DNA from: Fulvia fulva
Taxonomy: Eukaryota > Ascomycota > Dothideomycetes > Mycosphaerellales > Mycosphaerellaceae
Direction: 5' to 3'
Length of the DNA stretch: 64,000 bases
NCBI RefSeq assembly: GCF_020509005.1
Contig: NC_063016.1
Coordinates: forward strand, 5,580,001-5,644,000
The translations under genes were made by a program, and so were the position numbers. This document shows, in pieces, positions 29,501-61,628 of the stretch. Under the pieces are notes generated by a model. It was not told the DNA's origin. It searched no databases and was given only the letters and a program-made list of their open reading frames with translations. Every line of letters begins with the position of its first letter. Positions within the stretch are counted from its first letter, which is position 1.

Positions 29501-29735
29501 GTTCTCGGCCCTAGGGCGCTTATGCCCGACCGCCGCTAGTTAGTTCCGGTATAGGCTAGCCTTACGGTCGCCGTAGAATCTTAGGGCGACGGTTCTATTT
29601 ATGATTGCCTTGTTTTTCGCTAGTTTCCGCTATAGGCATTCCGTACTATACGATAGGTAGTACCCCGGACAGTTCGCGTACCGTCTCGTAGTCGATGTAT
29701 AGTCCCTAGACATATAGTCTCCTATATAGTTCGAG
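24918..29735. repeat. Segmental repeat of 1-4818
   Basis: Base-for-base collinear with the start of the window at a constant offset of 24917. It covers the gypsy-2 integrase end and most of LINE-A. Differences are few and mostly G/A or C/T up to about position 4560 (29477), then become more frequent. Both copies share the 657-bp deletion in LINE-A RT. The left end of the repeat may lie outside the window. Confidence 0.9.
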
Positions 29736-32732
29736 CCCGCCTAATTGCGCTCCTTAATACTCTTAGGAAGGCGCTTAAGAAGCTAGTTATAACGAGACTC
29801 TCCGAGGCGGTAGAGGAACACTCCCTACTCCCGGATACCTAGATAGGTACGCGCCTATAGCGATCGACGCTATCCGCGATAGAACTTATCACCTCTTAGG
29901 TAAAGGCTATCTAGTATAAGAATAGGGACAAGGTGGCTTCCTTACTTAGCCTAGACATATCGGGAGCCTTTGACTACGTGTTACACCCGCGGCTACTCTA
30001 TATCCTAAGGTCGAAAGGACTCCCTAAGTGGCTTGTTAACTTCGTACGGTCCTACCTCTAAAACCGTAGTACGTCGATCCTAGTCGGCTAGTACAGAAGC
30101 CCATTTCAAGTAGTCTATACTAGAATCCCGTAAGGCTTAACGCTAGTACCTATTCTGTTCCTCTTCTTTATAGCGACGCTGCTCCTAGCCCTAGAATCCT
30201 AGAATACCGCTACGAGCGGCTTCGTAGACGACATAAACATCCTAGCGTAGTCTTCCTCGACTAAGGAGAACTGTAGGCTACTAGAAGAGAAGCACAAGAT
30301 CTGCGAGGACTAGGCTAGGAGGCACGGGGCTCAGTTTGCCCTAGAAAAGTACAATCTGATACACTTTACGCGCCGGCCACGGTTCTACAATATGTAAGCT
30401 TCTATCTAGATATAGGGGCATACGACTAACCCGGCAAATCAGCTCAGGATCCTCGGACTATAGGTGGACCCGGCGCTACGGTAGAGGAAGTACGTATAGG
30501 CAATATTACGGAAAGCTAAATAGAATATAGCATTATACTAGAGGCTTACTACGTCTATATAGGGGGCGGACTTCCGGTAGTTACGACTTCTATATACGGC
30601 TATTATACGGCCAGTCCTTACCTATAGTAGCCAAGTGTAGTCCTTAGGCGAGAGGGCCTACCTATCGAAGGGACTCGTCGCGCCGCTAGCGAAGATCTAA
30701 AACTAATGCCTAAGGAAGGTCACCGGGGTATATAAGTCGACACTAACGAGGATACTTAAGCACGAGACCGCTATACCGCCGATCGACCTATACATCTAGG
30801 GACTACGGACCTCCTACTTAGGCAAGTCGGTATAGTACCTAGTATAGAAGGTCATCGCTAGTATAGTCGTAAGGGCTTACGAATCAGTACTAGCGTATAG
30901 GGGCATTCGACCCGGAAACGAGCCGAACTACCGGGCAAGGGACGAATAGCTAGTAATATAATAGGAAGGTGAGAAATCGTTTATAGAGCAACTATAGAAA
31001 GAGAGGTAGAACAACCAGGTTGTAGGGCATAGTGGACGCCCTTAGCTAGCGGGACAACCTAAGGAATAGTTAGCTATAAAATCCGCGGTCAAGCACCCCC
31101 CGAAGCTTATCTACTACCGCCTTACGAGGGCATAGAGTAGTATAGCAACCTAACTACGAAGCGAACACATCGGCCTCTAGGGGTACCTATTATAGAGGAA
31201 GGTTCTAGGATACACGAATACTAGCTACCCCTACGGCTATCGCTCCTAGAACGTACGGTACGTACTCCTCGTCTATCCGAGGTAGTCGCTAGGAAGGGGG
31301 GAGTAGATAGTAAAGGCGAGGAACCGGACGATTAGGGCACTTCTTAACAACGCTAAGGACCTACGGCGTATTACGAACTAGATACTAGAGAAGGGCTGGC
31401 TAGAACAGTACCGCCTAGTAGGAGTAGTATAGGAAGAGAGGATACGACGTAGCGCGACGAGACCGGCTAGGAGCGGGGGCTAACGGGGTAGTGATATAGA
31501 CTACGTACGTTTAGAGGGAAAGCTAAACTAGATAAGGAGTAGTCGGCGGCGGGAAGGGTTTTCACCTATTCGGGTTTCCCTTTATACATAACAATAGATA
31601 TATACCTATTTAGGCCGGATAGGGTCCTAGAACAGGGGAATAACAAATCTATCTATCTATATAGTTCGAGTAGGCCTACTTGTTTATGCTCGTATAGGTT
31701 TGGTGTCTATACTGCTAGTATTTAAAGCATTAGAGGACACGAAAGGATAAGGAGTGCTTTTCTACTGTCTTAAGGCTATACTACTAGACTAGGCCTTGTT
31801 CTATTGCTAGATCCGCCGCTTTTACGTCTTATAGCTATACTATTAGCGCCGAGGCCTTCTTGCCTTCTAGCCATTTCCTATAGAGCCAAGTCGCCTTCTA
31901 GATTAGAGAGTTAAAAGTGACCGGGTTGTCCTCGTAGAGAGCGCGTAGGTGACCCTAGTTAGTTAGGTCAAACTCCTTAGGCATATCGTAGACTAGGATC
32001 GTAAATTGTTTCATTAAGACCTTCGCTAATGCCGTAACCTTAGATGCCTACTATAGCTATGCCTCTAGGTGCCTCCTAGTAGTAGCAGAGCTAGTATAGA
32101 TCTATAGAGTACCGTTAGACTATTAGTTCACTACGACTACCCCTAGTTAGTTAATTTGTTAGGCGAGCTCCTTATTCGATAGCTTCGTAACTTCGGCCTA
32201 GTCTTCCTTTACTATAATACGGATCGTAACTATATCGTACGTTAGGCAGGGGCCTAGTATCGATACCGCGACCGATACCTAGCTATAGGGGTGTTGATTC
32301 CGGGTGGCCTTGCTAGTCGCCTAGGACGTCGTCCTTATTTCTTATTGCCCTCGGTAATACGATAGTATAAGCGCCGTGCGTAGCTAAGTGATCATTACCT
32401 ATAGAGACCGGTAAGGGAGCTGATCGTTAGTTTCTATACTTTTTGCGTCCTCTATAAGTTGCTACTAGTTGTCTTAGGGGGGCTTCGCCTATAGGGCCGT
32501 AGGCGCCGTTAGTGCCGTAGCCTAGGCTGCTATTGCCTAGGAGTTGCCTAATGTAGCTAGGCACCTCCGCGGCGTTTAGAGCTAAAGAAATAGGGTGAAG
32601 AGAGCTTTAAGCTATCTAGATTAAATGAGGTAGAACTCCCTTAGTCCTAGGGGTAGTGGCCTACTTTATATATCGTTAAAATGGCCTTAATAAGAGCTTT
32701 CGAATGTGTCGTGTTTTGGCGTAGAGATTGAT
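26501..32732 (-). mobile_element. LINE-A copy 2, interrupted by another LINE-A
   Basis: Minus-strand LINE-A, 3' tail at 26501 and 5' end near 32732, with the same internal deletion as copy 1. It is split by an oppositely oriented LINE-A fragment at 29736-31656. Removing that fragment and one TSD restores collinearity with copies 1 and 3. ORF2 (26501-29735) is heavily RIP-mutated and nearly identical to copy 1. ORF1 (31671-32732) is more strongly RIP-mutated than the copy 1 equivalent. Its 5' flank (copia) differs from that of copy 1. Confidence 0.9.
29722..31670 (+). mobile_element. Nested LINE-A 3' fragment with 14-bp TSD
   Basis: A 1921-bp 5'-truncated LINE-A (29736-31656) in plus orientation. 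It begins inside the RT domain (corresponding to about 53766 of the best copy) and ends with the tail aacaaatctatctat. The target repeat ctatatagttcgag occurs at 29722-29735 and 31657-31670. RT motifs can be read: SLDISGAFDYV near 29947-29980 and FVDDINIL near 30220. RIP stops are present but some CA/TG remain. It lies head-on within LINE-A copy 2, so the pair forms an inverted repeat. Confidence 0.93.
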
Positions 32733-43354: not shown

Positions 43355-43476
43355 TAATACGGACAAGGCGTAAGATAGGGCGTAAACGTATTAGTACCTT
43401 AGAATCGAATAAGTTCTACGAAGAAGAGAAGATAAGAAAGTCGCGAAGCCGCGAAGCCGCGATAATATAAACGTCG
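43355..43476 (-). repeat. LTR 2, left piece, ending in target repeat
   Basis: Matches 42293 to about 42412 of LTR 1, with a short cgaagccg duplication (43441-43460). It ends at tataaacgtcg (43466-43476), where the 12.2-kb block begins. The rest of the LTR is 55693-55773. Confidence 0.9.
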
Positions 43477-44557
43477 GTCGACGACGAGAATCACCTGTAC
43501 GTGGTGTCGGCTACGAACCTCTCGTCTAGCTACGAGAGAGCCAAGTATTCTCACGCTGGAGCGTCGTGGGCGCGACGGGCGCGCAACGTAGGCGAAGCCG
43601 CGGCGAACAGAGGACTACTAGCAAAACGGGTATGAAAACTATCCGACGAGCGTGTACTCGTGTCGGGAGCGAGTCCCTCTTCTTTCTACGTGTAAGAAGG
43701 GCGCGGAACCGTGGCCTATACGCTCGACAGGACACCTCTAGTATGAGTGCAGAATTTTCACCTCCGGAGACCGCAAACCGAGCGGGCTGAGCGACGAACA
43801 TTGGACGAGCGGACTACAGAACAACAACTGAGCGGACTATGCAACGGCGTCGAGCGGACTACGAAACAATCTGGTGTTTGCCAGCGGGCAATGCGGTGGG
43901 TAGGTGGACACGCGACGAAGCCTGTAAGGGCCTGTTGAACACCCGGTATGGGAACGAGGGTTTTGCCTAAGGCACTGCCTGTCCCGCTACACAACGCACC
44001 TAGTCTGACATGGTAGATTGCGACGAGGAAAAGACGATAGCCTAAGCAAGGAAAAGACGGCTGTTAGGACGGGGAAAAGACGTACAATGCAAGTGGATTA
44101 GTTCTGTGATCGGGGAGGATCGAGGGCAGGGTGATAAGGAACTTCATATTGGTTAGTAGGTGGAAACGTAAGGAGTACGCTGCCCGGCGTGGTGTGTGCC
44201 CCGAGCAAACCTGCGAGGCATGGACGGCCGCTTTCTAGAGATAGGCTGCGGTAACGCGAAGGGCGTCAAAACCTGGGGCGTGGTGTACACTAGCAGCGAC
44301 GGCTGACACTGTCTGTACAGCCCGAGAGGACGGATGCGCATGTCGGTCAATAGAGAGCACTAAAGGGCTTAGGCCTATGGAGGTGGATATTGGCTTAAGG
44401 AGCAAACAGGGAGGGAGGGCGTAGAGGGAAGCTTTTGCTCCGGGCTAACCTCTCGAAACGAGGCTATACGGTGGTGCTAGATGAGTGGGAAAGCGCGGTT
44501 AAGACTTGTCACCTTATCTCGTAGCTAGCTTGCTAAATACGATTCCTTCCTTGCTAG
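43477..44557 (+). mobile_element. WEIRD-like non-coding module, copy a (little RIP)
   Basis: A 1081-bp module starting gtcgacgacgagaatc and ending ccttccttgctag, nearly free of RIP. It recurs at 49911-50941 and, inverted, at 60532-61612. No ORF is conserved: the frames at 43526-43801 and 44153-44350 on minus and 43566-43790 on plus are broken by ordinary substitutions elsewhere. It carries a perfect 7-bp hairpin (ctctcgt/acgagag, 43519-43538) and three gagcggacta units spaced 23 and 22 bp (43807, 43830, 43852). Its 3' end is fused directly to a truncated LINE-B. By layout it corresponds to WEIRD of the Magnaporthe composite retrotransposon MINE; sequence homology to WEIRD was not tested. Confidence 0.8.
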
Positions 44558-46282
44558 AGACTTACGCAGCTTGCCGAGGACAACCACGTACTCCCAGCAA
44601 CACAGATGGGGGGAAGAAGCTAGCGATCGACACTAACAGCAATGGAGCTAATTACGGAGCAAATTCAGACCCTCTGGCACTACGGCAGGAACCGAGCGGC
44701 GTCCTTACTATCCCTCGACATCGCAGGGGCCTTCGACAACGTCTCACACCAAAGGCTAATACATATCCTACAGCAGAAAGGCATCCCCTAGTGGGCAACG
44801 TCGTTCGTCTTCTCCTTTCTCCAGGAACGGACGACATACCTAGTCCTGAGAAGGTACACGTCCGACCCGGTGAAGGCAGAGACTGGAATACCTCAGGGAT
44901 CTACTCTCTCCCCTATCCTGTTTCTGATATTTATGTCGGATCTAATCCCCCTACTCACCTCTCCGCAAACCTCAGCATCGGGGTTCGTAGACGATACAAA
45001 CATCCTAGCCTGGTCAGACTCGACAGAAGAGAACTGTCGCCTCCTTGAAGATAGGCACAAGAAATGCGAGGAGTGGGCAAAGAAGCATAGTGCCCGGTTC
45101 GCCCCTGAAAAGTACCAACTTATACACTTCAGTAAAGCGAGAACACACCATAATATAAAGGCGGCGGTAAGAATCCAAGGCTACGAGACCAAGCCATCAG
45201 CGGAGCTACGAGTACTAGGGATCTGGCTCGACCCGAAGCTAAGCTGGAATGTACAGATTAAGAAAGCCCAGAGTCGAGCGCAAGTCAATGAAGCCTCGAT
45301 AAAGAGGCTTACGGCATCTACATAGGGAGCAACATTCGACAAGGCAAGAGTAATGTATAAGGCGATCGTCAGACCAGCTATGTTGTACGGGGCACAGATT
45401 TGGGGAACAGGAGGCGCAGGCAAGCCGATCCCGAAACGGATAGAGCAACCCCTAAACAGGACACAGGCAGGCAACCTACGTAGGGTACTAGGCGCATACA
45501 AGACAACGTCAACAAGCACGGTAGAAATGGAGACAGGAATACCACCAATCGGCCAGTACATCCGGGGAATGAGAATTCAATACGCGGCAAAGACGACAGG
45601 TTACCTAGCACAAACCACGATCCAGGAGGCAAAGAATAAGATAGAAAGCCGCTACCGGAGAGGGGCAGGATATAGGACAAGCCAAAAAGAGGATGACCTT
45701 ACTACCTTTACGGCCGTACAGACAAGCACCGAATGGCTAGCACGAAAGGAGGAGGAGCGTAGGACTCGCCAGGCCGGCGGGAGCAAGGCTAAGACCCAAA
45801 ACCTAGCGGAACAGATAGCGAGCTGCCTATGGGAGCAGGACTGGAAAAGGAAGCCCCCTAAGACAACAGGCCCGATAGCGCTCCGAGCCTTCTAGAGACA
45901 CAATTACCAGCTATATAGGGACCTGACAAGGGCCGAAGCAAGCATAGCGATCCAAATCAGGTCCGAACACATTGGATTAAGGGCCTACCTGTTCAGGAGA
46001 CGCGCACTAGACATCTATAGCCCAGCCTGCCAGTGTGGCTACCCATCGCAAAACCCAGAACATATGCTACTACGATGCCCGCAGTGGGCGAGAGGCAGGG
46101 GAAATTGGAGGCACCAAGCGGGAAGGAGAGACTACAAGTCAATTATTAGGGACAAAGGCAACATTCGCCGAATCTCTCGGTGGATACTACAGCAGGGATA
46201 CCTCCAGCAGTTTAGCCTCGCGAGCGAGACGGAGGAGTGGATAGACAAGAGGCGGAAGCGAGGGGGGTTGCAGATAGGGTAG
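44558..46282 (+). pseudogene. LINE-B ORF2, C-terminal half (reverse transcriptase)
   Basis: A single frame of 574 codons, without initiator because of truncation. It begins in RT (RLTQLAEDNHVLPATQMGG) and shows SLLSLDIAGAFDNVSHQR near 44710-44760, TGIPQGSTLSPILFLIF near 44880-44935 and FVDDTNILAWS at 44984-45016 with both catalytic Asp. Thumb and connection regions follow, then the C-terminal CQCGYPSQNPEHMLLRC knuckle near 46028-46080, ending at TAG 46280-46282. Four in-frame TAG codons (44621, 44789, 45323, 45893) and no frameshift mark light RIP. No RNase H domain is recognised. It could not work alone, as it lacks endonuclease and ORF1. Confidence 0.9.
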
Positions 46283-46472
46283 TCATCAGGGCAGGCCCAT
46301 GACACTAGCGTACCCCTAACAAGGGAAATTTAAGACGACAACGAGGAGGAAAAGACAGGCGGGAAGGAGGAGGGGTTTTCACCAACACGGTTTCCCCTCT
46401 ATATATACAAAAACAAGATAGCATAGCTGCATAGGCCAAAGGGCACTACAACAGCTTAATGAAATATCTATA
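44558..46472 (+). mobile_element. LINE-B 3' part fused to module a
   Basis: A 5'-truncated LINE-B starting in the RT domain directly after the module's ctag. The same LINE reads gcctag|agacttacg in copy 3 (complement near 59040), so the junction shares ctag. The 3' end has the aacagcttaatgaaatatctata tail typical of this family, here at 46451-46472. RIP is light. Downstream begins another, heavily RIP-mutated LINE-B. Confidence 0.9.
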
Positions 46473-49400
46473 TAGTTATTACGGGCGAACGGGGAGTAAC
46501 GCTTAGAATATATATCTACGTTAATAAGACGAAAGACCTCGATATATAGGAGACTATACTATAACTATAGTAAGGAAGACGAGGCGACTTAATATTAATC
46601 TAGATCTCTATATCCTAAGGACCTATCTAGATCTATAGCGTCTATAACCTACTACCGTAGAGCCGTACGAGTAAGGAAATAGGGACCCTTACCTACCTAG
46701 AGAAGGCCCTATACTAAGGAGTATAATACGTACTCTTAGGCGACCTTAACCTCTACTACCCCTAATAGGGGCTCGACTTCACTCCCCTATATATATTCCT
46801 AGGAGGATAGCTACTCGACATAACTATACGATACGGAATAGCTCTAGTAACCCTAAAGGGAATAGAGACGTAGAAGGTATATTATATATAAGTACGAGTA
46901 TAATCGACCTATACTTCCTATTATAGGAACTTAAGGAAAGACTAGTTAACTACCGGCTAAACTACGTACTAGAAGTATCTTCTAACTACATCTCTTTATA
47001 GATAACGCTCGACGTAAAAGCTATAGAGGAGCCTATAAGAGAATCCCGCCGTAATTAGAAGAAAGCTCGATAGGACGAAATACGGTAATACCTTATAGTA
47101 AACCTACCGTAGAACTAGACCCTCGAGGCGATAACCTAGTTAGACTATATAGTAGAACAAGTCACTACTATAATCTAGTAAGTAGTAGAACGATATATAC
47201 CGCTACTCGAACTCTCGACCTACTAGAAGCCTTACTAGACCTAGGAATATACTACGAAGGTAAAGGAAGTAAGGAAGGTAAGGAGACAATAGATAGAAGA
47301 ATATACTTAAGAAGTATAGGATCGATACTACCGCGTAGTATAGGATAAGAAGGTATAAATACGGCGCGACAAACTATAAGAATAGAGAGCGATAGTAGGG
47401 ATAGTTATAGAGTACCTAGAGCAAATATAGAGACTCGCTAAATAGGTAAGATCACCTAGAGAAGAAAGGGCTCCCTACTTCCCCCCGATCGTAAACCGCA
47501 AAGGGTTACTTAGACTACGCCTAGAGATAAAGCTAGAGTCTTAGCCGATCACTTCTTCTCGATATACGTAGAGGCGGACCTTACTAATATAGACTCGATA
47601 ACGTACCCAGAGCTACTAGAAATAGACTAGGCGGTTACCCTAGAGATAGTAGAGGGAGTTATAGGCAAGCTTAAGAGACGAAAAGCCCCGGGGCTAGATA
47701 AGATACCTAACCTCCTACTAAAAGAGTATACGAAGGAAATCGCCCCGAGCCTAGTAGCCCTTTTTACCGTATACCTACGATAAGGATACTACCCGAAGCC
47801 GTATAGAGAATCGATAATAGTAGTACTTAGGAAGCTATAGAAGGAGGACTATACTCGACTTAAGTTATACCGACCGATTACGCCCCTTAATACGATAGGT
47901 AAGGTCCTCGAGAAGATAGGAGCCTAGAGGATTACGCGAATAGTTAAGGATAACTACCTACTCCTAGTAATATAGATAGGCAAACGGAGCTAACGGTTAA
48001 CGCTAACGGCGAAAGAACTAATTACGGAATAGATCTAAACCCTCTAGTACTATAGTAGGAACCGGGTAGCGTTACTACTCTCTCTCGACATCTTAGGAGC
48101 GTTCGATAATGTCTTATACAAAAGGTATATCTATATCCTACGATAGAAAGGTATCCCCCTCTAGGCTATAGAATTTGTCTACTCCTTCCTCTAAGACCGG
48201 ACGACAAATATCCTTCTCGGAAGGTATAGATCCGATCCGGTAAAAGTAATAACTAGGATTCCTTAAGGATCTACTCTCTCTCCTATCCTATTCCTTACCT
48301 TTATAGCGGACCTTATCCTACTACTAACCTCCCCGTAGACCTTAGTATCGGGGTTCGTTAACGATACTTATATCCTCGCCTAGTCTAACTCTATAGAGGA
48401 GAACTACCGCCTACTCGAGGAGAGACACTAATAGTACGAGTAGTAGGTAAGGAAAAATAGCGCCCGTTTCGCTCTAGAGAAATATAAGCTTATATACTTT
48501 AGTAAGGCAAAGACGTACTATAATATAGAGGTAGTAGTAGATATCTAGGGATACGAGACGAAACCTTCTAGCGAGCTTAGGGTTCTAGGGTTCTAGATCG
48601 ACCCGAAGCTAAGCTAGAACCTATAGATTAAGAAGGCCCTAGACCGGACCCGGACTAACGAGGCTTCGGTAAAGAGACTAATAGTATCTACCTAGGGGGC
48701 GACGTTCGAGAAGGCGAAGGTAATATATAAGGTAATAGTAAAACCGATAATACTTTACGGGGCGTAGATATAGGCTACGGGCGGAGCGGACAAACTAATC
48801 CCGAGGCGGATAGAGTAATCCCTTAAACGCGCGTAGGCGGGTAACCTACGACGGATACTAGGGGCCTATAGAAAAATACCGACGGATACGATAGAGATAG
48901 AGACCGGAACACCCCCGATCGCCTAATATATAAGGGGAATAAGAACCTAGTACGCCGCGAAGACAAGTAACTATCTAGTATAGACTACTATCTAAGAGGT
49001 AAAGAGGACGATCGCGAACCGCTACTAGAGAGGACCCGGATATAAGATAAGCTCAAAGGAGGACGACCTTAAAACCTTTGTAGCCGTATAGGTAAGTACT
49101 AAATAGTAGGAGCGGAAAGTAGAGGAGTAGAGCGTCCGCTAGGCCTATAGAAGTAAGGTAAAGACCTAGAGCCTCGTAGAATAAGTAGCGAGCTACCTAT
49201 AGGAGTAGGAATAGAAAAAGAGACCCCCTAAGACAATAGGCCTAATAGTACTTCAAACCTTCTAGAGACATAACTACTAACTATATAAGGACCTTACTAG
49301 GACTAAAGTAAGTATAGCAATCCAAATCAGGTCCGAATATATCGGGTTAAGGGCCTACCTATTTAGAAGACACGTACTAGATATCGAGAGCTTAGCTTAC

Positions 49401-49840
49401 TAATATAGCTATCTATCGTAAAACCCGGAGTATATACTACTATAATGCCCGTAGTAGGTAAGCGGTAGGGATACGTAGAGACATTAAGTAGAGAGAAGGG
49501 ACTATAACTACCTTATTAAAGACAAAGGTAATATGCGCCGGATTATACGGTAGATACTACGATAAGGTTTCTTCTAACAATTTAGCCTAGTAAAGGAGAC
49601 GGAAGGGTAGATAGATAAGAGGCGGAAGCTAGAGGGGCTATAGATAGGGTAGTTATTAGGGCAGGTCTATAATACTAGCGTACCCTTAATAAGGAAAGCG
49701 TAAGGTATAGAGACGAGAGATAGGACCTATAGGAGAGAGGAGGGGTTTTTACTAATATAGTTTCCCCTTTATATATAGTAAACAAGATAGTATAGCTATA
49801 TAGGCTTTAGGGCACTATAATAGCTTAATGAAATATCTAT
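46473..49840 (+). pseudogene. LINE-B copy 2, heavily RIP-mutated
   Basis: Plus-strand LINE-B remnant starting within the endonuclease domain (near 46480, with LYVNKT- and LDLYIL-like pieces) and running to a tail gcttaatgaaatatctatctata at 49824-49846. RT lies at about 47660-48500. The catalytic box FVDD has become FVND at 48354-48365, because a TG-to-TA change turned the first Asp into Asn. The C-terminal knuckle has also lost its cysteines. CA/TG are almost absent, in contrast with the LINE-B just upstream. A clear TSD was not found, since the flanks are tail-like ATCTATA repeats. Confidence 0.85.
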
Positions 49841-49910
49841 CTATATATACGCTAAGATCGTAATAGGATGTAGCGCTTAGCTAGTATACTATCTATATTA
49901 TTATAGACGG
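49841..49910. other. Short spacer before module b
   Basis: About 70 bp of RIP-mutated sequence between the LINE-B copy 2 tail and the start of module b at 49911. No feature recognised. It is the left flank of module b and differs from those of modules a and c. Confidence 0.4.
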
Positions 49911-50941
49911 GTCGACGACGAGAATTACCTATACGTAGTATCGGCTACGAACCTCTCGTCTTACTACGAGAGAGCTAAGTATTCTTACGCTAGAGCGTCG
50001 TAGGCGCGACGGGCGCGTAACGTAGGCAAAGCCGCGGCGAATAGAGGACTACTAGTAAAACGGGTACAAAAACTATCCGACGAGCGTATACTCGTATCGG
50101 GAGCGAATCCCTCTTCTTTCTACGTATAAGAAGGGCGCGGAACCGTGGCCTATACGCTCGATAGGACACCTCTAGTATAAGTATAGAATTTTCACCTCTA
50201 GAGACCGTAAACCGAGCGGACTATAGAACAATAACTAAGCGGACTATACGACGGCGTCGAGCGGACTACGAAACAATCTAGTGTTTACTAGCGGGCAATA
50301 CGGTAGGTAGGTAGATATACGACGAAGCCTATAAGAGCCTATTAAGTACCCGGTATAGGAACGAGGGTTTTACTTAACGCTCTACCTATCCCGCTATATA
50401 ACGCACCTAGTCTGATATAGTAGATTACGACGAGGAAAAGACGATAGCCTAAGTAAGGAAAAGACGTATAATATAAGTAGATTAGTTCTATAATCGGGGA
50501 GGATCGAGGGTAGGGTAATAAGGAACTTTATATTAGTTAGTAGGTAGAAACGTAAGGAGTACGCTATCCGGCGTAGTGTGTGCCCCGAGTAAACCTACGA
50601 GGTATAGACGGCCGCTTTCTAGAGATAGGCTACGGTAATATAAAGGGCGTTAAAACCTAGGGCGTAGTAGATACTAGTAGCGACGGCTGATACTATCTAT
50701 ATAGCCTAAGAGGACGGATATATATGTCGGTCAATAGAGAGTACTAAAGGGCTTAGGCCTATAGAGGTAGATATTGGCTTAAGGAGCAAACAGGGAGGGA
50801 GGGCGTAGAGGGAAGCTTTTGCTCCGGGCTAACCTCTCGAAACGAGGCTACACGGTGGTGCTAGATGAGTAGGAAAGCGCGGTTAAGACTTGTCACCTTA
50901 TCTCGTAGCTAGCTTGCTAAATACGATTCCTTCCTTGCTAG
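49911..50941 (+). mobile_element. WEIRD-like module, copy b (RIP mosaic)
   Basis: 1031 bp. It aligns end to end with module a but lacks about 23 bp around 50455-50470, where module a has two ggaaaagacg repeats, plus a few smaller gaps. From 49911 to about 50755 it is strongly RIP-mutated: cacctgtacgtggtgtcgg of copy a reads tacctatacgtagtatcgg here. From about 50760 to 50941 it is nearly identical to copy a. Its ctag 3' end is fused to an almost complete LINE-A. Confidence 0.85.
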
Positions 50942-52207
50942 GCTACGGCACTAACGGCGCCTACGGCCCTACAGGCGAAGCCCCCCTAAGACAACTGGCA
51001 GCAACTTATAGAGGACGCAAAAAGCATAGAAACTAACGATCAGCTCCCTTACCGGTCTCTACAGGTAATGATCACTCAGCTACGCACGGCGCTTGTACTG
51101 TCGTATCACCGAGGGCAACAAGAAATGAGGACGACGTCCTAGGCGATTAGCAAGGCCACCCGGAATCAACACCCCCATAGCTGGGCATCGGTCGCGGCAT
51201 CGATACTAGGCCCCCGCCTAACGCACGATGCAGTTACGATCCGCATTGCAGCAAAGGAAGACCAGGCCGAAGTTGCGAAGCTATCGAACAAGGAGCTCGC
51301 CTAACGAATCAACCAACCAGGGGTGGTCGCAGTGAACCAACAGTCTAACGGCACTCTACAGATCTATACTAGCTCTGCTACTACTAGGAGGCACCTAGAG
51401 GCACAGCCACAGTGGGCATCTAAGGTTGCGGCATCAGCGAAGGTCTTAACGAAACAATTCACGATCCTAGTCCACGACATGCCTAAGGAGTTTGACCCAA
51501 CCAACCAGGGTCACCTACGCGCTCTCCAAGAGGACAACCCGGTCACTCTTAACTCTCCAATCCAGAAGGCGACTTGGCTCCATAGGAAATGGCCAGAAGG
51601 CAAGAAGGCCTCGGCGCTAATAGTATGGCTACAAGACGCGAAAGCGGCGGATCTAGCGATAGAACAAGGCCTGGTCTGGCAATACAGCCTCAAGACAGTA
51701 TAAAAGCACTCCTCATCCTTTCGTGTCCTCCAATGCTTCAAATGCCAACAGTATGGACACCAAACCTACACGTGCACAAACAAGCAGGCCTGCTCGAACT
51801 GTGCAGGAGACCATATGTCTAGGGACTGTACATCGACTACGAGACGGTGCGCGAACTGTCCGGGGCACCACCCATCGTATAGTGCGGAATGCCCACAGCG
51901 GAAACTAGCGAAAAACAAGGCAATCACAAACAGAACCGTCGCCCCAAGATTCTACGGCGACCGTGAGGCTAGCCCACACCGGAACCAACTAGCGGCGGTC
52001 GGGCACAAGCGCCCTAGGGCCGAGAACGATGTAAAGGATGCGCAGCCTAGGGCGTACGGGAGGCCACGTGCTCTGCTAGCTGCGGCGAGGGAATCTAACC
52101 AGGCCCGGCTCCCCTTTAGTACACAGCCGATAGGCGTAGACCAGGACGCACAGGGCAGTAGGACACAGGACGATACAGAGGAAATGATTGTCGATGCCGA
52201 TGACTAG
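50942..52207 (+). pseudogene. LINE-A ORF1 (gag-like, three zinc knuckles)
   Basis: An ORF1 protein of about 420 codons, N-terminally truncated at the module junction, in one frame to TAG 52205-52207. The N-terminal part is helical and the middle is an esterase-unrelated basic region (FTILVHDMPKEFDPTNQGHL). At 51734-51895 lie three zinc knuckles: CFKCQQYGHQTYTC, CSNCAGDHMSRDC and CANCPGHHPSYSAEC. An acidic tail EEMIVDADD ends it. In-frame stops are TAA 50990, TAG near 51139, TAA 51302 and TAA 51701. The last stands where the other copies have GAA or GAG, so it is a transversion and not RIP. ORF1 overlaps the ORF2 start by 14 bp. Confidence 0.88.
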
Positions 52208-55200
52208 CCTCGACACGCTTAGCATCATCCAGTATAACGTCAACCATAGCAAGGATATAGTCCAGAACCATTTCCTACACGAGGCGGACCCGCGCGTCCA
52301 CCACGTCCTTGCAATCCAGGAGCCATGGATTAACCCGCACCATAAGAGACCAACGACCTGCAAGTCACCAGGCTACACGACATGCCTACGAGGCGACGGC
52401 AGACCCCGCACGTGCTTCTATGTCAGCAAGGACATACTAGAATCCGACTGGGAGGTAGTGTACTACGCAGACGAAGAAGGCGGGGGCGATATTACCTCCC
52501 TCCACGTGGGTAGCACCTGGATACACAACCTATACATGCAACCGCCAGCCTCGAGGTCTAGCCGCGACCTAGGGGTCTGCAGACACCTAGACAGTGCGCT
52601 CAAGAGACAAGGGTGCCACATCGTAGTAGGAGACTTCAACATACACCACCCTTCCTGGGAAAGCCTTATGCAGCCGCACCCTATAGCCGACGAAGTACTC
52701 GACTTGATGGCGAGCAACGCAATTGCCCTCAATACCCCGAAGGACCTGGGCACCTGGAAGAGAGGGGGACTCCAAGGCACGATCGACCTCTCCTGGATCT
52801 CAGATAGCCACTACCACACGGTAACCTACTGTGGGATCGAACATGAACTCGAGGCGTCGTCAGACCACATGCCAGTCAGGACCTCTATTGCGACACAGAT
52901 ACAACGCACACCAGCGAGAACCCCTAAGCCAAACTGGGGAAAGGCCCACTGGGCCAACATCCAGGCGTACCTCGATGACTCCAAGAGGCTAGTCCAGATC
53001 GCGCAGCAGCAATACAACAGTAAAGACGAGATAGACGAAGCAGTCCAGGGGTTGACAGACGAAATAAGAAAAGCGACCTCACTTCACGTTCCGCTTGCCC
53101 AACCAACGACATGGTCCAAACCATACTGGACGCCGGAGTGCACTGCGGTAGTAAGAGAAGCAAGGAGAGCCCGCCGGGTGTGGACGAGCAGCCATAGCGA
53201 GGAGGCCTGGAACGTATATAGGGAGGCATGCTAACAGAAGAAAGCCATAATACGGAGGGAGAAAGCAGTCGGCTGGAGGGCCACAGTGGAAGAAATCGCC
53301 GGCAAGCCAGAGAGGATGTGGAAGCTAGCGAAATGGGCCCGACAGGACCCTACACAGGGCCCCTCCTTCTCTATCCCAGCGCTACAATCGCCTAGTGGCC
53401 CGGTTAGCGACCCCGAGGCTAAGGCGCGTCTACTGGCTAGCAAGTTCTTCCCACCCCCAGTCGAGGCTGATCTAAGCGACATAAACAGCTCTACTCCCCT
53501 AGCCCCTAGCATCGCGGTCCAACAGGAGGTGTCCGAGGGAGAAGTTACCGCTGTGCTAAGGAAGTTGCCGGCGAAGAAAGCCCCGGGGCCGGATGGGATC
53601 CCAAACGAGCTACTAAAGAAGTGTAGAGATCAACTAGCCCCAGCAGTTGCAGCGATCTTCAACGCCTGCCTACAGACCGGATACCACCCGATAGCTTTTA
53701 AACAATCGACGACAGTGGTCCTACGCAAGCCGCAGAAGGAAGACTATACGCAGGTGAAGTCGTACCGCCCAATTGCGCTCCTTAACACTCTTGGGAAGGC
53801 GCTTGAGAAGCTGGTTGCAACGAGACTCTCCGAGGCGGCAGAGGAACACTCCCTACTCCCGGACACCCAGATGGGTGCGCGCCCACAGCGATCGACGCTA
53901 TCCGCGATGGAACTTATTACCTCTCAGGTAAAGGCCATCTGGTATAAGAATAGGGACAAGGTGGCTTCCTTACTTAGCCTAGACATATCGGGAGCCTTCG
54001 ACTACGTGTCACACCCGCGGCTTCTCTACATCCTAAGGTCGAAAGGACTCCCTGAGTGGCTTGTCAACTTCGTACGGTCCTACCTCCAAAACCGCAGTAC
54101 GTCGATCCTGGTCGGCCAGTACAGAAGCCCATTTCAAGCAGTCTACACTAGAATCCCGCAAGGCTTAACGCTAGCACCTATTCTGTTCCTCTTCTTTATG
54201 GCGACGCTGCTCCCAGCCCTAGAATCCCAGAACACCGCTGCGAGCGGCTTCGTAGACGACACAAACATCCTAGCGTGGTCTTCCTCGACTGAGGAGAACT
54301 GTAGGCTACTAGAAGAGAAGCACAAGATCTGCGAGGACTGGGCTAGGAGGCACGGGGCTCGGTTTGCCCCAGAAAAGTACAATCTGATACACTTTACGCG
54401 CCGGCCACGGTTCCACAATATGCAAGCTTCTATCTAGATACAGGGGCACACGACTAACCCGGCAAATCAGCTCAGGATCCTCGGACTATGGGTGGACCCG
54501 GCGCTACGGTGGAGGAAGCACGTACAGGCAATATTACGGAAAGCTGAACAGAATATGGCATCATGCCAGAGGCTCACTGCGTCCATATAGGGGGCGGACT
54601 TCCGGCAGTCACGACTTCTATATACGGCTATTGTACGGCCAGTCCTTACCTATGGCATCCAAGTGTGGTCCTTAGGCGAGAGGGCCTGCCCATCGAAGGG
54701 ACTCGTCGCGCCGCTAGCGAAGATCCAAAACCAATGCCTAAGGAAGGTCACCGGGGCATATAAGTCGACACTAACGAGGATGCTTAAGCACGAGACCGCT
54801 ATACCGCCGATCGACCTATACATCCAGGGACTACGGACCTCCTACTTAGGCAAGTCGGCACAGTACCTAGTATAGAAGGTCATCGCCAGTGCAGTCGCAA
54901 GGGTCCGCGAATCAGTACTAGCGTATAAGGGCATTCGACCCGGAAACGAGCCGAACTACCGGGTAAGGGACGAACAGCTAGCAACACAATGGGAAGGTGA
55001 GAAATCGTTTGTAGAGCAACTATAGAAAGAGAGGTGGAACAACCAGGTTGTAGGGCATAGTGGACGCCCTCAGCCAGCGGGACAACCTAAGGAATGGTCA
55101 GCTACAAAATCCGCGGTCAAGCACCCCCCGAAGCTCATCCACTACCGCCTTACGAGGGCACAGAGTAGCATAGCAACCCAACTGCGAAGCGAACACATCG

Positions 55201-55511
55201 GCCTCCAGGGGTACCTATTATGGAGGAAGGTTCCAGGATACACGAATACTAGCTGCCCCTACGGCTATCGCTCCCAGAACGTACGGCACGCACTCCTCGT
55301 CTGTCCGAGGTGGTCGCTAGGAAGGGGGGAGTGGATGGCAAAGGCGAGGAACCGGACGATCGGGGCACTTCTTAACAACGCTGAAGACCTACGGCGCATT
55401 ACGAACTGGATACTAGAGAAGGGCTGGCTAGAACAGTACCGCCTAGTAGGAGCAGTGCAGGAAGAGAGGACACGACGCAGCGCGACGAGACCGGCTAGGA
55501 GCGGGGGCTAA
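52194..55511 (+). pseudogene. LINE-A ORF2 (APE endonuclease and reverse transcriptase)
   Basis: 1105 codons in one frame from ATG 52194 to TAA 55509-55511. The endonuclease at 52210-52900 shows IIQYNVNHSKD, AIQEPWIN, VVGDFNIHHPSW and SSDHMPV. RT at about 53500-54420 shows KSYRPIALLNTLGKALEK, SLLSLDISGAFDYVSH, IPQGLTLAPILFLFF and FVDDTNILAWS (FVDD at 54249-54260). A C-terminal segment HIGLQGYLL...CPYGYRSQN..HALLVCP lies near 55190-55310, with one Cys of the usual knuckle changed. No RNase H domain is recognised. Five nonsense codons are present (TAA 53232; TAG 54435, 54588, 54873, 55023), all of the CpA-to-TpA type, with no frameshift. It was probably active very recently in evolutionary terms. 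Confidence 0.92.
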
Positions 55512-55681
55512 CGGGGTAGTGACATGGACTACGTACGTTCAGAGGGAAAGCTAATCTAGACAAGGAGTAGTCGGGGGCGGGAAGGGTTTTCACCTATTCG
55601 GGTTTCCCTTTGTACATAACAATAGATATATACCTGCATAGGCCGGATAGGGTCCTAGAACAGGGGAATGACAAATCTATC

Positions 55682-55778
55682 TATAAACGTCGAGGTTAGG
55701 GTCTAGGGTCCGGGCGCGCTAGCGTACTAGGTTACGTAATACTAAGTATAGCCTTACGAGGTAAACCGTAATAATAAG
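55682..55778 (-). repeat. LTR 2, right piece, plus 5-bp TSD
   Basis: Begins with the duplicated tataaacgtcg (55682-55692) and continues as LTR 1 does from aggttagggtctaggg to cgtaata (55773). It is followed by ataag (55774-55778), identical to the pentamer at 42288-42292. It completes the LTR element split by 12.2 kb. Confidence 0.9.
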
Positions 55779-57142
55779 CGCCTAGCTAGAGCGTATAAGA
55801 ACACGATCGCCTAACTCCTCGAAGCCCTTAAGGTACTCGAACATTAGATCCCGAGAGTAATTTAGTAGATAATATAGAAAGCTACTACCTAGTACACTCC
55901 TATATAGGCAAACGTAGTAGCTAACTCCCCTAACCTATAGACCTAAGGACAAACAACGCTATTAGGGTATACGTTACGGACCCGGAGGAGAAGCGAGAGC
56001 TAGAGGGCCTAATAAGTAAGGAGCTAGTAGATAGGATTAGCTAGAAGGAGATAGTAGGAGCTAAAATCGAGCCTAGAGGAGTAATACGCCTTATTATAGT
56101 ATAGGAGATAGACCGACAAAAGCTCGAGACCCTTAAGGACTAGATAGTCAAGGTAGCGAGGTCGGTAAAGGTCTCTTACTAGTAGTTTATAGTAATAGCC
56201 TATAGGGTACTAAGGACCTTTAGGGTAGAGAACGACCTCGCCCTACTCTAGATATAGAACTAGAACACCCTACCGGGAGTACGCTTTACTAAAGTAGCGT
56301 AGCTAAATAAGAACGTTAAAGCTACTAAGACGTACTACTCTCTAATCGTCTAGCTAGCTACCGCGGAATAAGCGAACTAGGTCCTAGAAGGAGGACTATT
56401 CTAGTAATACGAACGCCTCGATACGGAGATATATAAGAGTAGCTATAGAGTGCTCTAATGCTTTAACTACTAACAATACGGCTATCTCGCGCTAAAGTAT
56501 ACTAAGAAGACCCCTAAGTACCTATACTACGTAGGACCGTATTAGGGGAAATAATACCTACGGGAGGAATCGAGGTACGCGTACTACGGCCGTAAATACC
56601 CGGCATACTCGAACTAATGCCCTATAAGGATAGTAGCGTAAAAAAAGGTCCGCTAGGCTAGGGTAATAACCCCGGCGAGGTACTCTATACTAACGCTCGG
56701 CAATTCCTAGTATAGAGGATTCGAGGCCGTAAAGAGGAAAAGGATAGACGAAGCGACACAGAATATATAGTAGAGTACTCGCCCGCCGCCGGGACGCCTA
56801 AGGGGGCTATAGAGGGCGGTAAATAAAGCTAGATAGATACGAGTCTTTAGGTACCCCCTAACGACCGAACGCTAACTAACCTAATAGGATAGCGCGATAA
56901 AGTAAGGAGCTATATAGCTAACGAGCACCCTAATAGACCTTATCCTAACTAGTCCGTAATACTAATATAAGCCAATCTTACTATTATATAGTATAACGTT
57001 AAGAAAAGTAAGGACAAGGTTTAGCTCTACTTCCTCTAGGAACTCGACGACTAAAGGCATTATATCGTAGCGATATAAGAGCTATAGATAAACCTATATA
57101 CTCGAAGACCTACTACCTATACCGACCTACGGTACTATATAG
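55779..57142 (+). pseudogene. LINE-C, segment 2: ORF1 and start of ORF2
   Basis: Continuation of segment 1. It opens RLARAYKNTIAQLLEAL, giving an ORF1 with predicted helices. Zinc-knuckle remnants follow at about 56455-56620 (CFNYQQYGYLALKY for CFKCQQYGH..KC and YAYYGRKYPAYSNQC for CX2C...), in which several Cys and His are changed to Tyr by RIP. ORF2 begins near 56985 with the endonuclease start (LTILQYNVKKSKDKVQ, then YIVAIQEL). The sequence stops at the target site ctacggtactatatag (57127-57142) of the composite insertion. Confidence 0.82.
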
Positions 57143-60100
57143 ATAGATATTTCATTAAGCTGTTGTAGTGCCCTTTGGCCTATATAGCTATGCTATCTTG
57201 TTTTTATATATATAGAGGGGAAACCGTATTAGTGAAAACCTCTCCTCCTTCCCGCCTGTCTTTTCCTCCTTATTATCGTCTTAAATTTCCCTTGTTAGGG
57301 GTACGCTAGTGTTATAGGCCTGCCCTAATAACTACCCTATCTACAACCCCCCTCGCTTCCGCCTCTTATCTATCTACTCCTCCGTCTCGCTCGCGAGGCT
57401 AAACTACTAGAGGTATCCCTACTATAGTATCTACTAAGAGATTCGGCGAATGTTGCCTTTGTCCCTAATGATTGACTTATAGTCTCTCCTTCCCGCTTAG
57501 TGCCTCTAATTTCCCCTACCTCTCGCCTACTACGGGCATCTTAGTAGTATATGTTCTAGGTTTTTCGATAGGTAGCCACACTAGTAGGCTGGGCTATAGA
57601 TGTCTAGTACGCGTCTCCTAAATAGGTAGGCCCTTAATCTAATGTATTCGGACCTAATTTGGATCGCTATGCTTGCTTCGGCCCTTGTTAGGTCCCTATA
57701 TAGCTAGTAATTATGTCTCTAGAAGGCTCGAAGCGCTATCGGGCCTGTTGTCTTAGGGGGCTTCCTTTTCTAGTCCTGCTCCTATAGGTAGCTCGCTATC
57801 TGTTCCGCTAGGCTTTAGGTCTTAGCCTTGCTCCCGCCGGCCTAGCGAGTGCTACGCTCCTCCTCCTTTCGTGCTAGCCATTCGGTGCTTGTCTATACGG
57901 CCGTAAAGGTAGTAAGGTCATCCTCTTTTTAGCTTGTCCTATGTCCTGCCCCTCTCCGGTAGCGGCTTTCTATCTTATTCTTTGCCTCCTAGATCGTGGT
58001 TTGTGCTAGGTAACCTGTCGTCTTTGCCGCGTATTGAATTCTTATTCCCCGGATATACTAGCCGATTAGTAGTATTCCCGTCTCTATTTCTACCGTACTT
58101 ATTAACGTTGTCTTATATACGCCTAGTATCCTACGTAGGTTACCTACCTATATCCTATTTAGGGGTTACTCTATCCGTTTCGGGATCGGCTTACCTACGC
58201 CTCCTGTTCCCTAAATCTGTGCCCCGTATAACATAGCTAGTCTAACGATCGCCTTATATATTACTCTTACCTTATCGAATGTTATTCCCTATATAGATAC
58301 CGTAAGCCTCTTTATCGAGGCTTTATTAACTTGCGCTCGACTCTAGGCTTTCTTAATCTGTACATTCTAGCTTAGCTTCGGGTCGAGCTAGATCCCTAGT
58401 ACTCGTAGCTCCGCTAATAGCTTGGTCTCGTAGCCTTAGATTCTTACCGCCGCCTTTATATTATAGTGTGTTCTCGCTTTACTAAAGTGTATAAGTTAGT
58501 ACTTTTCAGGGGCGAACCGGGCACTATACTTCTTTACCCACTCCTCGCATTTCTTGTGCCTATCTTTAAGGAGGCGACAGTTCTCTTCTGTCGAGTCTGA
58601 CTAAGCTAGGATGTTTGTATCGTCTACGAACCCCGATACTAAGGTTTACGGAGAGGTAAGTAGGGGGATTAGGTCCGACATAAATATTAGAAATAGGATA
58701 GGGGAGAGAGTAGATCCCTAAGATATTCTAGTCTCTACCTTCACCGGGTCGGACGTGTACCTCCCTAGGACTAGGTATGTCGTCCGTTCCTAGAGAAAGG
58801 AGTAGACGAACGACGTTACCTACTAGGGGATGCCTTTCTGCTATAGGATATATATTAGCCTTTAGTATAAGACGTTATCGAAGGCCCCTACGATGTCGAG
58901 GGATAGTAAGGACGCCGCTCGGTTCCTACCGTAGTGCTAGAGGGTCTGAATTTGCTCCGTAATTAGCTCTATTACTATTAGTGTCGATCGCTAGCTTCTT
59001 CCCCCTATCTGTGTTACTAGGAGTACGTAGTTGTCCTCGGCTAGCTACGTAAGTCTCTAGGCTACTATCTTTTCTAGGACCTTCCCTATCGTATTTAGAA
59101 GTGCTATTAGTCTATACGACTTGGGCTAAGTATAGTCTTCCTTCTATAGCTTACGTAGTACTACTATTATAGACTCTCTATACGGCTTCGGGTAATACCC
59201 TAGCCGTAGGCACGCGGTAAATAGGTTTATAAGGCTCGGCGCGATCTCTTCTCTATACTCTTTTAGTAGTACGTTTAGTATCCTGTCTAGGCCTAGGGCT
59301 TTTCGTCCTTTTAGCTTACTTATAACTCCTGTTACTATGTTAGAGCTAACCGCCTAATCTATATCTAGGGGTTCCGGGTATATACTCGGGTCGATGTCCG
59401 TAAGGTCTGCCTCTACTTACGTCGAAAAGAAATGGTCGGCTAACGCTTTTGCCTTGCCCCGGGGTGTAGCCTAGGCAATCCCTTCGCGGTCTACGATTAG
59501 GGGCAAGTAAGGGACTTATTGCTCTTTAGGTAGTCGTGCCTATCTAGCAAGTCTCTATATCTGTTCCGGGTTTTCTATAACGAGCCCGATCGTCGCTCTC
59601 TAGTCCTATAGCTTATCGCGTCTTATCTATGCCTTCTTCTCTTATGTCGCGTAGCAGTATTGCTCCTACGTCTCTTAGGTATGCTCCTTCGTCTACTATC
59701 GCCTTGCCCTTCTAGCCTCCCTTACCTTCGTAGAGCATTTAGGGGTCTAGAAGGCCTTCTACTACGTTAAGGGCCGGAGTAACGGCGTGTATTGTTCCGC
59801 TACTTGCTATATAACCGAGGTAATCTGTTCCGCTACTTGATCTAGCTAAGCTATCGTCTTACGTTCTCTATACTGTAGTAGGTTTACTATTAGGAAGCCT
59901 CTTATATCGTCCTAGCGTGCCTTCTTCTAGTTACGGCGTAGTTCGTTTACTAGCTCCTCTATTACCTTCACCCCTAGCGTCGTTTAGATAGAGATATAGT
60001 CTAAGGAGGCTTCTAGCGCGTAGTTCGGTCGGTATTAGACTAGTCTCTCTTCAAGTTCTCGTAATAGAAAGTATAGGTCGATCGTGCTTATACTAGTACG

Positions 60101-60531
60101 GGCCTTCTACGTCTCTATTCCCTTTAGTATTACTAAGGCCATTCCGTAGCGTACGGTTATGTCTAGTAGCTTCCCCCCTAGAAACGCGTATAGGGGAGTG
60201 AATTCGAGTCCCTACTATAGGTAGTAGAGGTTAAAGTCGCCGAGGAGTACTTGCTTCGTGTCTTAGCTTAGGGTCCGCTCTAGGTAGGCGAGGGTTCCTA
60301 GTTCCCTACTCGTCCGACCCCGTAGTAGCGGGTTATAAACGTTATAGATCTAGATAGGGCCTTATGTCGTATCGATCTAGATTAATATTATGTCTCCTAG
60401 GTTGCCCTACTACGGTAGTATAACCTTCTACGACTTAAGGTCTATAGTCTTGCTTACGTATATATATGTCCTCGGGATGACGCCTCGTTAGCCCGCGATT
60501 ACGGTATAGTATCTCCGGTCATTACAAGTAG
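57143..60531 (-). mobile_element. LINE-B copy 3 (minus), 3' part of composite c
   Basis: Minus-strand LINE-B with tail at the left (atagatatttcattaagc, 57143-57160), extending from the 3' end back into the endonuclease domain, where it is joined to module c at 60531/60532. ORF2 C-terminus, RT and endonuclease are RIP-mutated but align with 44558-46472 over their shared length. Plus-strand frames at 57934-58236 and 58777-58962 are antisense shadows. Together with module c it forms one insertion bounded by a 16-bp TSD. Confidence 0.9.
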
Positions 60532-61612
60532 CTAGTAAGGAAGGAATCGTATTTAGTAAGCTAGCTACGAGATAAGGTAACAAGTCTTAACCGCGCTTTC
60601 CTACTTATCTAGTACTACCGTATAGCCTCGTTTCGAGAGGTTAGCCCGGAGCAAAAGCTTCCCTCTATACCCTCCCTCCCTGTTTACTCCTTAAGCCAAT
60701 ATCTACCTCTATAGGCCTAAGCCCTTTAGTGCTCTCTATTGACCGACATACGTATCCGTCCTCTCGGGCTATATAGATAGTGTTAGCCGTCGCTACTAGT
60801 ATATACTACGCCCTAGGTTTTGACGCCCTTCGCGTTACCGTAGCCTATCTCTAGAAAGCGGCCGTCTATACCTCGTAGGTTTGCTCGGGGCATACACTAC
60901 GCCGGGCAGCGTACTCCTTACGTTTCTACCTACTAACTAATATAAAGTTCCTTATTACCCTGCCCTCGATCCTCCCCGATTATAGAACTAATCCACTTGT
61001 ATTATACGTCTTTTCCCCGTCCTAATAGCCGTCTTTTCCTTGCTTAGGCTATCGTCTTTTCCTCGTCGCAATCTACTATATTAGACTAGGTACGTTATGT
61101 AGCGGGATAGGTAGTGCCTTAGGCAAAACCCTCGTTCCTATACCGGGTGTTTAATAGGCCCTTATAGGCTTCGTCGCGTATCTACCTACCTACCGTATTG
61201 CCCGCTAGTAAACACTAGATTGTTTCGTACTCCGCTCGACGCCGTTATATAGTCCGCTCAGTTATTGTTCTATAGTCCGCTCGTCTAATATTCGTCGCTT
61301 AGCCCGCTCGGTTTACGGTCTCCGGAGGTAAGAATTCTATACTTATACTAGAGGTGTCCTATCGAGCGTATAGGCTACGGTTCCGCGCCCTTCTTATACG
61401 TAGAAAGAAGAGGGACTCGCTCCCGACACGAGTATACGCTCGTCGGATAGTTTTCATACCCGTTTTACTAGTAGTCCTCTATTCGCCGCGGCTTCGCCTA
61501 CGTTACGCGCCCGTCGCGCCTACGACGCTCTAGCGTAAGAATACTTAGCTCTCTCGTAGCTAGACGAGAGGTTCGTAGCCGACACTACGTATAGGTGATT
61601 CTCGTCGTCGAC
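60532..61612 (-). mobile_element. WEIRD-like module, copy c (5' part of composite c)
   Basis: A 1081-bp inverted copy of the module, exactly the length of copy a. It ends at the right with the complement of gtcgacgacgag (61601-61612) and at the left with the complement of ttactag. RIP is moderate to strong. It is followed immediately by the TSD ctacggtactatatag (61613-61628). The hairpin ctctcgt/acgagag is preserved near 61550-61570 with a different loop, and the gagcggact-like units are recognisable. Confidence 0.85.
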
Positions 61613-61628
61613 CTACGGTACTATATAG

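Follow-up and report, generated by a model that had tools for sequence, protein, structure and literature searches.

A 1.08-kb non-coding module of Fulvia fulva apparently joined in trans to LINEs of at least five families at an R-Y^C site

In a 64,000-nt stretch of the Fulvia fulva genome (contig NC_063016.1, positions 5,580,001 to 5,644,000; here called the window), three copies of a 1.08-kb non-coding module (a, b and c) are each joined at the 3' end to a long interspersed nuclear element (LINE). An initial annotation of the window had noted these joins and had proposed that the module is a discrete RNA, repeatedly added to LINEs in trans as a unit with fixed ends. This proposal now appears well supported, as partners come from at least five LINE families, chimeras carry single target-site duplications (TSDs) and identical modules occur on four families. 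At the level of sequence, the copies document a LINE-independent module with fixed ends, one TSD each, many independent joins, recurrent junction sites and a junction rule, R-Y^C (R, purine; Y, pyrimidine; the caret marks the join). We favour an explanation, to which as a whole we assign a probability of about 0.86, where the module is the DNA copy of a separate non-coding RNA whose 3' end has been joined to LINE RNA or cDNA at R-Y^C, the product entering the chromosome in one target-primed insertion.

The module comprises nt 0-1077, starts with GGTCGACGACGAG and ends with ...TTCCTTG(C), G1077 being its last base and the C that comes next in most copies being attributable to either partner. 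Its longest ATG frame encodes 91 aa and is antisense. Copies were counted in the whole assembly (67.2 Mb in 14 contigs, the window lying within contig C5) using 27-base patterns for the 5' end, the middle and the 3' end with up to 3 mismatches. This gave 551, 595 and 607 places, respectively, and none for any of the three reversed patterns, so that the 607 3'-end places cannot be due to chance. As the three counts are nearly equal, 5' truncation of the module must be rare; repeat-induced point mutation (RIP), whose C>T and G>A changes mark many repeats of this genome, may affect the three patterns unequally, and small differences in count mean little. A copy beginning at nt 1 was found in each of the loci L001-L040, 20 of which (L021-L040) had been selected by the 3' end only.

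The sequence following the module was read for 114 of the approximately 607 3' ends, namely those in L001-L040, second copies in L031, L035 and L039, copies b and c of the window, L041-L060, seven of L064-L073, L074, L075, L077-L094 and L095-L116; L063, L066 and L070, which are broken short of the 3' end, were not counted. All 114 are adjoined by a LINE or, in two cases, by a second module, and the LINE is always in sense with the module on its 5' side. The initial annotation had distinguished two partner families; that there are several was correct, but the number is at least five (A-E), to which diverged relatives must be added (the partners at L035b, L064, L077 and L105). Families A-D have a common (ATCT)n tail, while family E, which matches them by translated search, ends in (ATTT)n. 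The frames of LINE-A have Pfam matches to endonuclease and reverse transcriptase (RT), and powdery mildews are the source of most named RT relatives among the 120 matches listed. Seen from the LINE side, 9 of 100 listed 3' ends without RIP from families A, C and D (out of 1,179) have an exact module end up to 6 kb upstream on the same strand, two lists having been compared by eye.

Each chimera is one insertion event. In 27 of the 31 copies with both ends in hand, an exact TSD of 12-16 bp encloses module and LINE together, the alternative of separate TSDs for the two parts, raised with the initial annotation, not being borne out. When flanks were swapped between loci, 12 bp or more were found in 17 of 870 pairs; this control set excludes L061, and 26 of its 30 real pairs have the duplication.

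A strict rule governs the position of the join within the LINE. It was derived from 93 rows, representing 92 places (window copy a is L001), each having a longer LINE as reference, which reduce to 61 distinct sites. Excluded were copy b of the window (its own reference), L009, L017, L022, L061, L077 and L105 (no longer reference), and L035b, L039b and copy c of the window, whose RIPped ends were missed by the search string; copy c fits by eye. Pyrimidines occupy both sides of the join (Y^Y) at all 61 junctions, Y^C is found at 57, and a purine precedes in 54. Directly after G1077 the LINE has C in 57 cases and T in 4 (one reference T being a RIPped C); in the reference LINE the preceding base, at -1, is C (45) or T (16), and at -2 there is A (38), G (16), T (6) or C (1). 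The background frequency of YC is 0.116. The base after RYC is C at 37, T at 11, A at 11 and G at 2 of the 61 sites. Two module-into-module fusions obey the same rule. Guide-like pairing between the module and its junction sites gave no convincing signal, the best of 9 tests having P 0.011.

The junction rule suggests that RNA is cleaved and then joined, either by ligation or by an end-to-end jump of RT; the RNA intermediate, the cleavage of LINE RNA and the joining reaction are inferred. The process would start from a separate non-coding RNA roughly 1,078 nt long, both ends of which are fixed: GGUCGACG... on the 5' side and ...CCUUG or CCUUGC on the 3' side. At R-Y^C sites in the RNAs of at least five LINE families, either the RNA would break or reverse transcription would stall, and the module RNA would become joined there by its 3' end, in nearly all copies with no bases gained or lost. 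The joined molecule would then be copied from the LINE 3' tail into the target, in one target-primed event, up to the 5' extremity of the module.

Of the two ways in which the joining might occur, ligation of the RNAs before reverse transcription, to which we give just under an even chance, would involve an endoribonuclease cutting at RY^Y and a ligase, such as the tRNA-splicing ligase, that attaches the module RNA, the chimera serving as template. The joins are blunt and exact, and the donor sequence is strict both in several LINE families and where a module is the donor, a rule that points to cleavage of RNA as the first step. In addition, GAC lies within +1..+9 at 29 of the 61 sites as compared to 14% of other RYC sites, several patterns having been tried. 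Such a reaction requires the assumption of a module RNA whose last base is always G1077, and a nuclease of RY^Y specificity, of which we know no example. Ligation before retrotransposition has been argued as an alternative for U6/L1 chimeras (PMC13174262, citing Moldovan 2019, in the excerpt considered).

The other way, rated only marginally lower, is template jumping, the mechanism proposed in the initial annotation, where the LINE RT halts partway along the LINE RNA and resumes at the 3' end of the module RNA. With a terminal C on the module RNA, there would be one base of complementarity to a G-ended cDNA at 57 of the 61 sites, and the module-into-module fusions resemble double jumps. However, this leaves unexplained the pyrimidine at the uncopied base (61 of 61) and the purine preceding it (54 of 61). 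A general RT stop is disfavoured, as it would not account for that pyrimidine; a cut of the LINE RNA at RY^C would, and could be followed by ligation or by a run-off RT jump, which we weigh as about equal. Module-less truncated LINE-A copies with TSDs fit the rule in 1 of 4 cases, weakly against a general stop signal in a very small and RIPped sample. Template jumping is the published model for the chimeric MINE retrotransposons of Magnaporthe (PMC2104539, as given in the excerpt).

Joining has occurred many times. Among 31 little-mutated copies, 10 modules are identical over nt 1-1077 although their LINEs belong to four families (A, B, C and D). At least three module haplotype groups coexist, so that more than one source copy seems to have been active, or one that changed over time. 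Junctions were seen once at 47 of the 61 sites and repeatedly at 14, among these one site in six copies and one in seven; 2 of the 14 include copies from local duplications (L001/L002; L046-L048). Repeated sites would also be expected if chimeras were transcribed and copied themselves as units, each shared junction being a single multiplied event, and L021 and L037 do have both junction and module haplotype in common. We nevertheless consider such self-copying improbable. It does not account for the 47 sites seen once, it is contradicted at three recurrent sites where different module haplotypes share one junction (L008/L034, L015/L032 and L003/L006), and the LINE parts of L021 and L037 are each nearer to that of L030 than to one another.

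That the module is simply the 5' untranslated region of LINEs, which would explain why it always lies 5' of a sense-oriented LINE in the chimeras read, can be dismissed, given 61 distinct join positions in several families and, for LINE-A, a 5' end of its own that is module-less in two of three places. The pattern for this 5' end occurs at 113 places, the preceding bases of which vary, and among the three within fetched loci there is no module up to 400 nt upstream at L023 and L040, and one behind a 30-nt filler at L009. A LINE-B 5' region at L025 likewise has no module. The module as ordinary 5' end of full-length LINEs, a possibility attached to the initial annotation, was thus not found.

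Several observations weigh against the joining of a separate RNA at R-Y^C in one target-primed insertion. No exact TSD was found for 4 of the 31 copies, namely L033, L035 and copies a and b of the window; the last two lack one of their own because of recombination (see below). One copy, the second module of L031 (473-1142), is RIPped and lacks nt 1-406, with its 3' end joined to LINE-E; module-into-module fusions aside, it is the only 5'-incomplete module whose 3' flank was seen. At L009 and L094, a filler of 30-36 nt separates the module from a LINE-A having nearly its whole 5' end. Junction sites are predicted to be only weakly more accessible (P 0.05). The predicted fold of the module is weaker in energy than the folds of 40 shuffles (z +2.1), so that a structured RNA or ribozyme is not supported. 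Finally, no solo or source module occurs among the 114 3' flanks, a sample that favours un-RIPped 3' ends; the module locus without any LINE that the initial annotation anticipated did not turn up in it.

The source was also sought by other means. An exact ...CCTTG followed by a purine exists at one place, L094, with LINE-A beyond the 36-nt filler, and the corresponding ...CCTTGC followed by a purine at 16 places, all 16 continuing into LINE or module. Two copies with an exact 5' end and middle and an inexact 3' end are LINE-joined as well. Patterns for the 18S 5' end and the 28S end gave no match in the assembly with one mismatch allowed, so that the ribosomal DNA (rDNA) is apparently missing from it. 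Rfam reported no family at gathering score in the window and one chance-level match for the module (E 2.5), tRNA genes were absent from the window, and viral contigs contained no exact match to the module 5' end. It is conceivable, if unlikely, that the module is a self-sustaining parasite of LINE RNA which has no stand-alone gene; it would be released from its own chimeras or from an unassembled array (e.g. the rDNA), and would become attached by its 3' end wherever an RNA has been broken at RY^C, one RNA serving several LINE families at once as their common 5' adapter. The module may be a parasite, as the initial annotation proposed, or a captured host RNA. A closing pairing between nt 50-61 and 1041-1052, which form a perfect 12-nt inverted repeat, was considered and found to be unsupported, as older copies have T at nt 52 with no change of the partner among the variants listed.

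MINE chimeras of Magnaporthe were reportedly treated by Fudal in 2005. They are a known kind of element, WEIRD-MGL chimeras of Magnaporthe grisea/oryzae, to judge from excerpts of two papers (Gogvadze 2007, PMC2104539; PMC3978060) on which the following comparison is based. Both systems have a non-coding full-length 5' part of about 1.1 kb, a 5'-truncated LINE as 3' part in equal sense, and a single TSD, and share recurrent junction sites, the lack of any solo copy found, and an occasional double join; the full-length 5' part, the truncated same-sense LINE and the one pair of direct repeats were all found here. The systems differ in scale (33 bipartite chimeras, 31 of them MINEs, versus approximately 600 module ends), in their partners (mainly MGL versus at least five LINE families) and in the module-into-module fusions present here. 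The MINE authors give the donor consensus GCC^A/U, and no microhomology is reported in the excerpt (PMC2104539); the RYC part is common to both systems, whereas A/U is not kept here, C being commoner than A/U after the C. Recounting the 18 representative rows of their Table 3, we find C (16) or T (2) before the switch, preceded by Y in 17 and then R in 18, so that R-Y-Y precedes the switch in 17 of 18 rows and R-Y-C in 15 of 18 (PMC2104539). One MINE primer, possibly lying outside WEIRD, matched the module with 7/20 mismatches at best. GenBank entries EF585235-EF585237 are given as transcribed MINEs (PMC2104539).

The chimeras are also reminiscent of U6/LINE-1 chimeras in mammals, for which the excerpt seen describes both ligation and template switch as proposals (PMC13174262): an RNA copy is fused in sense to a 5'-truncated LINE and flanked by a TSD. 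The present case differs from these in its 1.08-kb module, its strict RY^C donor rule and the dominance of one RNA for several LINE families.

Short interspersed nuclear elements (SINEs) and SVA-like composites are non-autonomous sequences moved by LINE machinery, as the module would be. These differ from the present chimeras, where there is no constant LINE-derived tail and the LINE part varies by site: 61 distinct LINE positions follow the module, and the constant 3' tail of a SINE was not found.

Fungal chimeras of this kind from outside Magnaporthe were not encountered among the matches listed in the open-licence literature. What is new here is the scale, how many LINE families take part, the joining of module to module and the strictness of the junction rule. 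The chimeras would represent the MINE phenomenon in a second fungus, where junctions number in the hundreds and not in the dozens. A strict R-Y^C is seen at 61 sites across the LINE families of one genome, an equivalent grammar can be read in the Magnaporthe list, and the donor rule makes the choice between a template jump of RT and RNA cutting with ligation testable. One RNA would serve at least five LINE families, and copies of the module appear to act as recombination sites.

Recombination of this type best explains the arrangement of a and b in the window, the parts of which are as follows.

43466 to 43475: 5' TSD TATAAACGTC of a presumed older module-LINE-A insertion, followed by G0
43476 to 44553, plus strand: module a, nt 0-1077; C1078 (44554) belongs to module or LINE
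44554 to 46467, plus strand: 3' part of LINE-B joined to a; colinearity with LINE-A places the junction in the RT region
46468 to 46483: CTATATAGTTATTACG after the LINE-B of a; target sequence upstream of the module at L002
46490 to 50800, plus strand: presumed copied segment with a RIPped LINE-B relative and the 5' part of module b
49910 to 50937, plus strand: module b (G0 at 49910), 50 nt missing
50938 to 55681, plus strand: LINE-A joined to b; junction upstream of the endonuclease (52188-53231) and RT (53286-54434) frames
55682 to 55691: 3' TSD TATAAACGTC, partner of 43466-43475
57127 to 57142: TSD of chimera c, CTATATAGTACCGTAG on the minus strand
57143 to 60535, minus strand: 3' part of LINE-B joined to c; colinearity places the junction in the endonuclease region
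60536 to 61613, minus strand: module c, nt 0-1077, RIPped
61613 to 61628: TSD of chimera c, 5' side; its last G overlaps G0

In a self-comparison of the window, the three modules match one another along their length, a and c without gaps over nt 0-1077 and b without 50 internal nt. The common start described in the initial annotation is confirmed, the true start being one base earlier, at an additional G (G0; positions 43476 in a, 49910 in b and 61613 in c). Where position 0 differs from G, which is the case in 72 places genome-wide, it is always A, preceded by T in 12 of 12 fetched places; this fits G0 being part of the module, as RIP is expected to turn TG into TA. The common end ...ccttNctag had to be revised. 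G1077 and C1078 are located at 44553/44554 (a), 50937/50938 (b) and 60536/60535 (c), and the 'ctag' beyond them belongs to the LINE: it is a coincidence, a LINE-derived CCAG having been altered by RIP in each case. The junction site of a is ..TAGC[CCAGAGAC], which reads CTAG after RIP, and that of c is ..CTC[CCAGCCAC].

Chimera c arose by one simple insertion, bounded by a TSD of 16 bp, and its module carries 89 C>T/G>A differences distributed along the whole length. As compared to the commonest young module, module a has 8 such differences. Module b has 104 such changes, only 3 of which are found beyond nt 900, and we read it as a probable mosaic, in which a RIPped part has been copied in while the end, spared by RIP, belongs to the original insertion. 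In the simplest reading, a and b together would represent one older module-LINE-A insertion, split inside the module when recombination between modules copied in a segment that lies at a distance of 78 kb. This is based on the pairing of TATAAACGTC across a and b (before a and again after the LINE-A of b), on window 46490-50800, which equals C5:5548131-5552441 with an identity, as printed, of 100%, on the identical module-LINE-B join of L002, a locus offset by the same 78,359 bp, whose sequence module a and its LINE-B match, and on CTATATAGTTATTACG after LINE-B. Module a carries some L002 variants but not those at nt 108, 110 and 313, and because of these differences the exchange point seems to lie beyond them. 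Both joins are real, the one of a being present at L002 and that of b being the join of the original insertion.

A number of further loci deserve mention. At L061 (C2:1627200-1632600), a module with a family E LINE and a 14-bp TSD lies within a P4-ATPase-like gene, which has named relatives in several Pezizomycotina groups (59-65% identity; best relative 67%, over most of the query); the LINE part contains many in-frame TAG codons and has a RIP index above that of the module. The module-into-module fusions are L074/L075 (C3:1272020-1273250) and L106 (C11:2169490), the join being at AC^C, and two middle matches 911 bp apart at C9:1263747 may represent a third double join. L046-L048 (C1:8825825, 8830490 and 8835160) show the identical LINE-D chimera junction three times at a spacing of about 4.67 kb, probably a tandem duplication. 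On the minus strand of L022, at about 6316, a module-less LINE-A with a TSD and two extra bases is truncated at the junction nucleotide of L014/L111. Within the window, positions 1-4825 and 24918-29742 are 4.8-kb segments with 99.6% identity, a further recent duplication.

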